Source: Nanoarchaeota archaeon (GTDB taxonomy: Archaea > EX4484-52 > LFW-46). Taken from it: a stretch of DNA of 6,743 bases. Under the pieces are notes generated by a model. It did not search any database. It saw only the letters and a list, made by a program, of their open reading frames with translations, and had not been told where the DNA came from. The stretch is from positions 1 through 6,743 of the forward strand of contig JAHILE010000014.1 in NCBI GenBank assembly GCA_018897155.1, in the 5' to 3' direction. The translations under genes were made by a program, and so were the position numbers. Positions 473 to 6,743 of the stretch are shown in pieces. Position 1 is the stretch's first letter. Every line of letters begins with the position of its first letter.

Positions 473-985
473 ATGAAAGGAATTTACTGTCTGGTTATCC
501 GCCTCGAAAAAGATGCGCGCATCAGAATCGGCTCTTTAGGAGAGTTGTTTTTTGAAAAAGGCAGCTATGTCTATGTCGGCTCTGCAATGAACGGGCTTGA
601 AAACCGCATTGCGCGCCACTTGAGATATGAGAAAAAACTGCATTGGCATATAGATTACATGCTTTCAAATAAATGCGCGCGAATCACGCAAGTTCTTGCA
701 AAAGAAGCCGGAAAAAGTCATGAAAATCCTTATGCATGCCCCACCTTAAAGGGTGGTGCTTGTCCGGATTTTCAAGCCGTTTCAAAGTTTCGCTCCGCGC
801 TAAAGCGCGTAGCTTCAACGTTTGAAAGCGAAGAGTGCGCGACTGCGGAAAAAATCGCGCGCATTGGAAATTGTGTTGAAGATTTCGAATGCAGCGACTG
901 CAAATGCATTAGCCACCTATTTAAAATCAAAGGTAAGATAACACTTCCGGGATTCACTGTTTTTTCCCGCAAACATCGCATTTAG
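473..985 (+). CDS. DUF123 / GIY-YIG-like family protein with an in-frame insertion
   Basis: The 170-residue product matches DUF123 (PF01986), a family related to the GIY-YIG nuclease fold and common in archaea. Diagnostic stretches are MKGIYCLVI (1-9), GSYVYVGSAMNGLENRIARHLR (30-51, the GIY-YIG-like core), HWHIDYML (57-64) and the cysteine-rich FECSDCKCISHLF (138-150). The biochemical role of DUF123 is not settled; a nucleic-acid function is inferred from the fold. Residues about 83-118 (HENPYACP... to ...ASTFE) look foreign. Family members normally run almost directly from the strand ending VLAKEAGK into SEEC, and removing the 36 residues restores AGKSEEC. The extra DNA is exactly the two-palindrome element at 721-827. 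It keeps the frame, so the protein may still fold with a loop extension. The last 32 bases overlap the convergent E1-like gene. Confidence 0.85.
   Translation: MKGIYCLVIRLEKDARIRIGSLGELFFEKGSYVYVGSAMNGLENRIARHLRYEKKLHWHIDYMLSNKCARITQVLAKEAGKSHENPYACPTLKGGACPDFQAVSKFRSALKRVASTFESEECATAEKIARIGNCVEDFECSDCKCISHLFKIKGKITLPGFTVFSRKHRI
721..827. repeat. Tandem palindromic element inserted in the DUF123 gene
   Basis: Two large stem-loops stand five bases apart. SL1 is closed by TGAAAATCC (721-729) and GGATTTTCA (766-774), a perfect 9-bp stem, with an inner CCACC/GGTGG stem (741-745/752-756). SL2 is closed by TTTCAAA (780-786) and TTTGAAA (821-827). It continues with GTT/AAC (787-789/817-819), GCT/AGC (792-794/811-813) and CGCGC/GCGCG (796-800/805-809) around a TAAA loop. 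The pair coincides with the extra peptide that interrupts the DUF123 protein. It behaves like an in-frame palindromic mobile repeat, comparable in kind to the Rickettsia palindromic elements or archaeal IS605-derived MITEs. Whether further genomic copies exist cannot be seen here. Confidence 0.7.
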
Positions 986-2199: not shown

Positions 2200-3015
2200 T
2201 CATGCCACAATAGAAACCAACGTCGGTGCAATATGATAAAAAACAAAGTAATTGAAAGCTATATGTGTCGCATCAAAAACTAGGGTCTTTATCGCGCTGT
2301 GCCCTGAAGAAATATAAATTACTGAAATTATGGCGTCGTAAAGCACTGTAAAAATGACACCCCATAGCGCTATATTTGCTATTGTCAATGTTCCTGCAAG
2401 AAATCCGATAACCATTATTGTAATAAATGCAGGCCACATCTTTCCATGGTCTTCCTGTGTCAGGAGTGTGCTTAAAACAAGCGAAACAAAACCGACAATC
2501 AATCCGGCGGCGGCGCCATATGTGACTCCTGAAACTACTGTCGCAAGCATAACCAGTTCAATTCCAAACTCAAACGGAAAAAAGCGCTGCCATACCCTCG
2601 AAATCGCGCCCATGAATATCAGCGACAAAAGGACAATACCCGCTTTCATATAAGTGTAAAAGAAAAACGCGGACAAAATTAAAAGAATCGCGCCAATTGC
2701 AATTACAACTCTTCTGTGCTTCTTAAAGTCAAGTTTTATCAGCTCAAGAACGCTTTTTTCATGACGCGAGCCGCTGCAGGCAGGATTATTTGAAGAAACG
2801 CGATTTTCCGCATTTACGATATCTCGGGCAGGACTATTTAAGGTGACTCGATTTTCAGCATTTACTTTTTCAGCAATTATATTCTCATCAGTTACAGAAA
2901 CTGTTTTTTGCGCGCCTGAAAAAACTCCTGCAACCGAAAGAACGAGCCCTGAAACGCTGAATAACTGCATAGAGGATTTATCTTTTTTAATAATCCCTCC
3001 TTCTCTTAAAGTCAT
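2200..3015 (-). CDS. Multi-pass membrane protein, possibly ECF S-component-like
   Basis: The 271-residue product starts with a short basic stretch and a hydrophobic segment (about 17-34). A polar linker (about 36-100) contains a duplicated 16-residue unit (VNAENRV...), followed by basic KKHRR (98-102). About six hydrophobic segments fill the rest (roughly 103-120, 122-139, 153-186 possibly as two, 195-212, 215-235, 241-265). The stretch FEFGIELVMLATVVSGVTYGAAAGLIVGF recalls the membrane-embedded S-components of ECF vitamin transporters, usually about 180-200 residues. That matches the C-terminal 170 residues, with the N-terminal part extra. The resemblance is by pattern only, no EcfA/EcfT partner is in the window, and the substrate is unknown. 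The ATG at 3015 fits the TATA-like elements at 3041-3055. A strong GGAGGG lies inside codons 6-7, without a usable start codon at the right distance after it. Confidence 0.7.
   Translation of the reverse strand: MTLREGGIIKKDKSSMQLFSVSGLVLSVAGVFSGAQKTVSVTDENIIAEKVNAENRVTLNSPARDIVNAENRVSSNNPACSGSRHEKSVLELIKLDFKKHRRVVIAIGAILLILSAFFFYTYMKAGIVLLSLIFMGAISRVWQRFFPFEFGIELVMLATVVSGVTYGAAAGLIVGFVSLVLSTLLTQEDHGKMWPAFITIMVIGFLAGTLTIANIALWGVIFTVLYDAIISVIYISSGHSAIKTLVFDATHIAFNYFVFYHIAPTLVSIVA
2779..2865 (-). repeat. Tandem 48-base repeat inside the membrane-protein gene
   Basis: Bases 2779-2817 and 2827-2865 are diverged copies offset by 48 bases, sharing a GCAGGA core, TATTT and CGATTTTC.GCATTTAC. They encode two 16-residue units, VNAENRVTLNSPARDI and VNAENRVSSNNPACSG, in the linker before the transmembrane domain. 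The period is a multiple of three, so unit number can change without a frameshift. Confidence 0.75.
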
Positions 3016-6610: not shown

Positions 6611-6630
6611 CCGCGCCATAAATGGCGCGG
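6611..6630. repeat. Perfect palindrome in the putative insertion-sequence right end
   Basis: The arms CCGCGCCAT and ATGGCGCGG are exact reverse complements around AA (plus strand). In single-strand IS200/IS605 transposition, such hairpins near the ends are the TnpA recognition structures. Here it lies about 16 bases after the TAA of the adjacent open frame. Confidence 0.8.
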
Positions 6631-6645
6631 CGTTTCATGCATGAC

Positions 6646-6741
6646 TTACGCCGCAAACTGAATCAGCTTACTTTGTGCGCCGAAATTCGGCTTTGTAGAT
6701 AATGTTTTATGCCAATGCTTCTGTTGCGACTGTTCAACATA
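6646..6741 (-). CDS. C-terminal tail of a possible TnpB-like protein (5' part outside window)
   Basis: The minus frame is open from the window edge to a TAA at 6648-6646. The 31 residues start YVEQSQQKHWHKTL and end SKLIQFAA. The tail is polar and has no diagnostic motif. The tnpB assignment comes only from its position directly before the IS200/IS605-like right-end hairpin, where tnpB genes usually stop. It could instead be tnpA or an unrelated gene. The other two minus frames are interrupted by stops in this stretch. Confidence 0.35.
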   Translation of the reverse strand, partial: YVEQSQQKHWHKTLSTKPNFGAQSKLIQFAA

Positions 6742-6743
6742 AT

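Follow-up and report, generated by a model that had tools for sequence, protein, structure and literature searches.

The insert in the DUF123 gene

The window, by which we mean the whole 6,743-nucleotide stretch of DNA analysed here, carries on its forward strand a gene of the DUF123 family in which the two conserved parts of the protein are separated by a palindromic stretch (Table 1). The initial annotation had placed two adjacent stem-loops inside this reading frame, and RNA folding bears this out, as 712-835 forms two adjacent hairpins of -44.4 kcal/mol against a mean of -27.6 for shuffled sequences (z -4.7, 0/200 shuffles as good) while the 170-residue frame stays open throughout. Among the 61 genomes searched, matches to the DUF123 protein span residues 1-84 and, beyond an omitted middle, about 118-161, and in 12 of 12 aligned homologues the 37 residues between AGK and SEEC correspond to one clean gap. 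This exact gap sets the limits of the insert at 718-828, a length of 111 bp or 37 codons, so the proposed insertion stands but its proposed size, about 36 residues, does not. Removal of the insert leaves AG/C at the junction and restores AGKSEEC, the sequence predicted from the DNA and now in agreement with the aligned homologues. Hairpin 1 of this copy contains an additional nested stem (741-756) that is private to it. Neither the PDB (E≤10) nor NCBIfam (E≤1, in a release in which the presence of a Rickettsia palindromic element model was unverified) returned a match for the protein. Elsewhere in the window, a 271-residue protein (2200-3015) without a Pfam match contains VNAENRVTLNSPARDI / VNAENRVSSNNPACSG, imperfectly repeated in tandem close to the N-terminus (about 2766-2866, minus strand).

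Table 1. The DUF123 gene and the parts of its insert, in window coordinates
Feature	Position	Strand	Basis
DUF123 host gene, 170 aa	473..985	+	ORF list; Pfam PF01986 DUF123, E 3.2e-23, in two stretches
Element, 111 bp, TCATG...TTTGAAAG, conceptual translation HENPYACPTLKGGACPDFQAVSKFRSALKRVASTFES	718..828	+	37-residue gap in homologues; termini are those of the dispersed copies
Hairpin 1, TCATGAAAATCC ... GGATTTTCAAGC	718..777	+	fold; match to R1 (covariance model of hairpin 1) at 718-785, 47.2 bits; covarying stem positions
Hairpin 2, GTTTCAAAGTTTCGC ... GCTTCAACGTTTGAAAG	779..828	+	fold; second hairpin in nearly all copies, compared with control positions
Left flank AAAG, host-gene sequence, fits AAAR target preference	714..717	+	flank enrichment in 120 copies

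A dispersed family with a common plan

The window's own genome (G000, 1.43 Mb in 62 contigs) and its congener LFW-46 (G001) both belong to family f1. LFW-46 is a DPANN archaeon (p__EX4484-52), described as reduced and host-dependent (PMC8561730), and the main text of the paper describing it contains neither the word palindrome nor the word repeat (PMC8561730). Its DUF123 gene (L199, G001:C55, about 12350-12950) carries other palindromic inserts and an in-frame stop. BLASTN of 700-840 against the window's genome located six further places at E≤1e-3 and a consensus query yielded more, so that the dispersed copies that the initial annotation had proposed as a check were found, in the same and in related genomes. 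With the scoring of candidates capped in each search, the R1 model gives approximate counts at E≤1 of 71 for G000 and 102 for G001, and at E≤1e-3 with stricter filters of 56 and 73, respectively; the copies themselves were read as stretches around search matches. The same two-hairpin element is present in genomes of family f7 of the same order, where at five loci (L253, L258, L263, L269 and L273) copies follow one another head to tail in pairs, spaced about 75-77 bp apart and with one AAAAA in common; at none of the f7 loci read does a copy sit internally and in frame within a conserved gene. More distant archaea gave no match in 26 of 27 cases and a single weak match in the other, and a strict pattern run over 84,980 species genomes found 18 stretches, 16 in 'uncultured archaeon LFW-46' and two in unrelated surroundings. 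The strict pattern is absent from IMG/VR, searched for viral carriage, and window 600-950 has no Rfam match up to E 1. Template switching can create palindromes, and those in the DUF123 gene might have arisen locally in this way rather than from a mobile family; homologous copies with common termini are, however, spread over numerous contigs and across several genera of the order, and we see next to no chance of such an origin.

Nearly all copies are built to one plan, TCWTGAAA, stem, loop, stem' and TTTCAAGC, then directly TTT, stem, loop, stem' and AAA (in short, TCWTGAAA-stem-loop-TTTCAAG-C-TTT-stem-loop-AAA), with a median length of 70 bp. The stem sequences are variable but their pairing is kept: at the four stem positions that vary in hairpin 1, 363/464 cases are paired compared with 295 ± 6 after shuffling of the 3' arms between copies, and a hairpin 2 stem score of at least 12 is reached in 97% of copies but at only 27% of matched control positions. 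Several copies (G000:C24:35331, C29:22783, C59:11495 and others) run on into a further repeat, e.g. AAAGCCTAGAG...GCGAAAGGATTTT, which suggests a longer composite element.

AAAR is over-represented in the left flank, with A at -3 in 68/120 copies and a purine at -1 in 103/120. AAAG does occur at both borders of the DUF123 insert (714-717 and 825-828), as had been noticed, but the target-site duplication it brought to mind is ruled out by the other copies, whose left flanks are unlike their right ends (left-flank 4-mer/right end: uvrA AAGG/AAAG, carA GCAA/AAAG, grpE AAGA/AAAG). AAAG is the conserved 3' terminus of the element itself, and at the clean empty sites in DUF123, uvrA and carA there are no duplicated bases, the length of the insert being that of the element. 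A consistent target duplication is absent, and the left flank reflects an AAAR preference.

Copies within, at the ends of and between genes

At least five genes, DUF123 together with uvrA (contig C15), carA (C27), ileS (C55) and grpE (C50), hold an internal in-frame copy that adds 18-37 residues. All five copies lie on the gene's own strand in codon phase 2 and read HENP...DFQA, and in this phase all five are open and have a length divisible by three, as is true of only 9/110 of the other copies, so they constitute a selected set. Since other copies are often open in phase 1 and in the reverse frames, open frames alone fail to explain the phase common to the five. A copy in a Fic-like gene (C27:692) and the N-terminal copies of SAHH, RpiB and vWA, with empty sites unchecked, were left out of the internal insertions.

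Besides DUF123, two of these sites have exact empty counterparts. Exactly 32 residues, HENPQ...STFES, are missing from the CarA of four relatives in the order (G007, G032, G029 and G012), and the UvrA of LFW-46, 84% identical, is without 22 residues (66 bp) and represents an empty site; the alignment with Geobacillus UvrA (2r6f) likewise has a gap at the position of the element. The junction is less exact in LFW-46 IleRS, which lacks 20 residues (60 bp) compared with an element of 18 (54 bp), and also in LFW-46 GrpE, from which the element is absent but where the N-terminus is variable. LFW-46 has fewer copies within genes.

Some yeast mitochondria bypass hairpin-rich inserts within coding genes, and in-gene copies might similarly be passed over by the ribosome, or be removed from RNA as a BHB-type intron, and so be missing from the protein. 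Each hairpin closes on itself, however, so that no bulge-helix-bulge would form across the junction, and the stop-free, in-frame state of the five copies in a common phase, set against that of the others, points to selection on translation; we regard both routes as very improbable. Our preferred reading, to which we assign a probability of roughly 0.85, is that 718-828 belongs to a high-copy, non-autonomous family of two-hairpin mobile elements, and that it inserted precisely and survives as an open, in-frame insert. An element of this archaeal order would have entered the DUF123 gene after an A-rich, AAAR-type site without target duplication, and its survival there would be owed to the phase xxT CAT GAA ..., in which it is open and its length is divisible by three. 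The gene would then still make its protein, with a 37-residue hydrophilic linker that is presumably translated and tolerated as a surface loop.

The left foot TCATGA offers an immediate stop in phase 0 (TCA TGA) and an ATG in phase 1, hence copies are found also at gene ends and starts. Across two genomes, ten ORFs of at least 100 residues end one codon into an element, and Pfam-confirmed genes ending in this way include those for ribosomal protein L3, Pus10, UbiA and a phosphoribosyltransferase, among others. In eight copies the right foot of hairpin 2 carries an ATG from which an ORF of at least 60 residues starts, and in a DegT-family gene of LFW-46 the element's own ATG is usable as a start. 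Some copies (L153 at G000:C46:51385, L095 and others) fill an intergenic spacer, for instance after the ribosomal protein L3 gene; the upstream gene's TGA then lies in the left foot and the downstream gene's ATG on the right foot.

These gene ends and starts, together with a stretch rich in purines within the right arm of the eight copies that supply an ATG, are what would be expected of a copied regulatory RNA leader (stop, hairpins, Shine-Dalgarno-like stretch, start) whose in-gene copies are accidental. Many copies lie elsewhere, however, including convergent or divergent spacers and a tRNA intron, the host genes are unrelated and the f7 copies form tandem arrays, all of which makes a leader origin highly improbable. 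The tRNA-like gene concerned (GGGGCCG...CGGCCCC; L062 of LFW-46, reverse strand from 5121), judged by eye from the pairing of the tRNA halves, has a long intron that holds the copy; at L007 ARAGORN found no tRNA. A 235-residue ORF with a signal-peptide-like start and no Pfam match encloses another copy (L141, G000:C48:68760), which runs on the opposite strand.

Mobilisation and comparison with known systems

At the end of the window (6646-6743, minus strand, and 6611-6630) the contig cuts an IS200-like Y1 transposase gene within its 3' part; its last 32 residues are identical to those of a gene at G000:C35:26310, and its stop codon is followed by a CCGCGCCAT/ATGGCGCGG hairpin. Y1_Tnp genes number three in the window's genome and one, with TnpB, in LFW-46, and among the other genomes of the order 1/19 has a match, which contains an in-frame stop. 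None of the four Y1 loci inspected has the element at its ends, which speaks against its being part of a Y1 transposon, and no autonomous parent was found. Its motif occurs in 0/3 of L170, L171 and L173, with one copy about 1 kb off in L137, and the folded end regions of the Y1 loci, for which full transposon boundaries were not established, look unlike it. The mover would be a single-strand hairpin-recognising enzyme, the leading candidate being a Y1 (IS200/IS605-type HUH) transposase acting in trans. Such single-strand transposition would fit the precise, duplication-free insertion, the two hairpins and the A-rich left flank that resembles the right end, and we propose Y1-driven mobilisation tentatively, at somewhat less than even odds.

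The archaeal PATEs (palindrome-associated transposable elements) of Haloquadratum walsbyi are transposase-free, with near-terminal palindromes and neither terminal inverted repeats nor target duplication (PMC3119063), and the element resembles them in these palindromes and in both absences. It may itself be of this kind, that is, a core-deleted IS605-type transposon of which only the fused hairpins of the left and right ends remain and which an IS200-type TnpA moves in trans. The shared architecture, the likeness of the A-rich left flank to the element's right end and the presence of Y1_Tnp in both f1 genomes are consistent with this derivation, but the ends of the four inspected Y1 loci are unlike the element, and three f7 genomes with many copies of it (G007, G012 and G017, MAGs 79-82% complete) have no Y1_Tnp match, so that we consider it possible at somewhat less than even odds. 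The ends of PATEs match those of IS605-type elements in the same genome (PMC3119063), whereas no such match was found for the present element at the four Y1 loci, and in-frame gene insertion is not given as a PATE feature in the accessible text of that source (PMC3119063).

The mobile element that we propose for 718-828 differs further from two other classes of short repeat. Like REP/REPIN sequences and their RAYTs, it combines high-copy hairpin repeats with Y1 transposases in the f1 genomes, but no GTAG tag was seen at the hairpin foot, and it is not limited to extragenic DNA and does not flank Y1 genes (none adjacent at L170, L171 or L173). Like classical MITEs it is short, non-autonomous and dispersed, but its termini, TCATGAAAATC and ACGTTTGAAAG, do not form inverted repeats and there is no consistent target-site duplication.

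The closest parallel in behaviour is with the Rickettsia palindromic elements (RPEs), which are short, dispersed in a reduced genome and inserted in frame in unrelated genes, to which they add a peptide (PMC10969869). That the DUF123 insert is a protein-coding palindromic insert of this type in an archaeon, as the initial annotation had ventured, is supported by the second copies and by the exact gap; no homologue turned up with the same residues and no palindrome. The archaeal element likewise lies in frame in unrelated genes (DUF123, uvrA, carA, ileS and grpE), but it belongs to another domain of life, consists of two independent hairpins with variable, covarying stems, and is shorter, with a median of 70 bp compared with about 150 bp for RPEs. 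Its strict pattern is not found in Rickettsia or relatives, 16/18 matches among the 84,980 species genomes falling in LFW-46. The RPE review called a similar process in other prokaryotes conceivable (PMC10969869), and in the open-licence literature on palindromic elements and RAYTs we found no archaeal protein-coding palindromic element.

Selfish palindromes that enter conserved genes in frame have hitherto been regarded as peculiar to Rickettsia and close relatives. On balance we think it probable that this is the first archaeal family of protein-coding palindromes and an independent counterpart of those in Rickettsia, in which the TCATGA foot acts as stop, start or linker according to phase and so permits residence at gene ends, starts and interiors. 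An unrelated family of this kind in a small-genome, host-dependent DPANN archaeon suggests a recurrent route to longer proteins in small-genome prokaryotes, and congeners with occupied and empty uvrA and ileS sites make translation, tolerance, usefulness and the moving enzyme testable. While matching neither in sequence, the element acts like the Rickettsia palindromic elements and looks like the IS200/IS605-derived PATEs.
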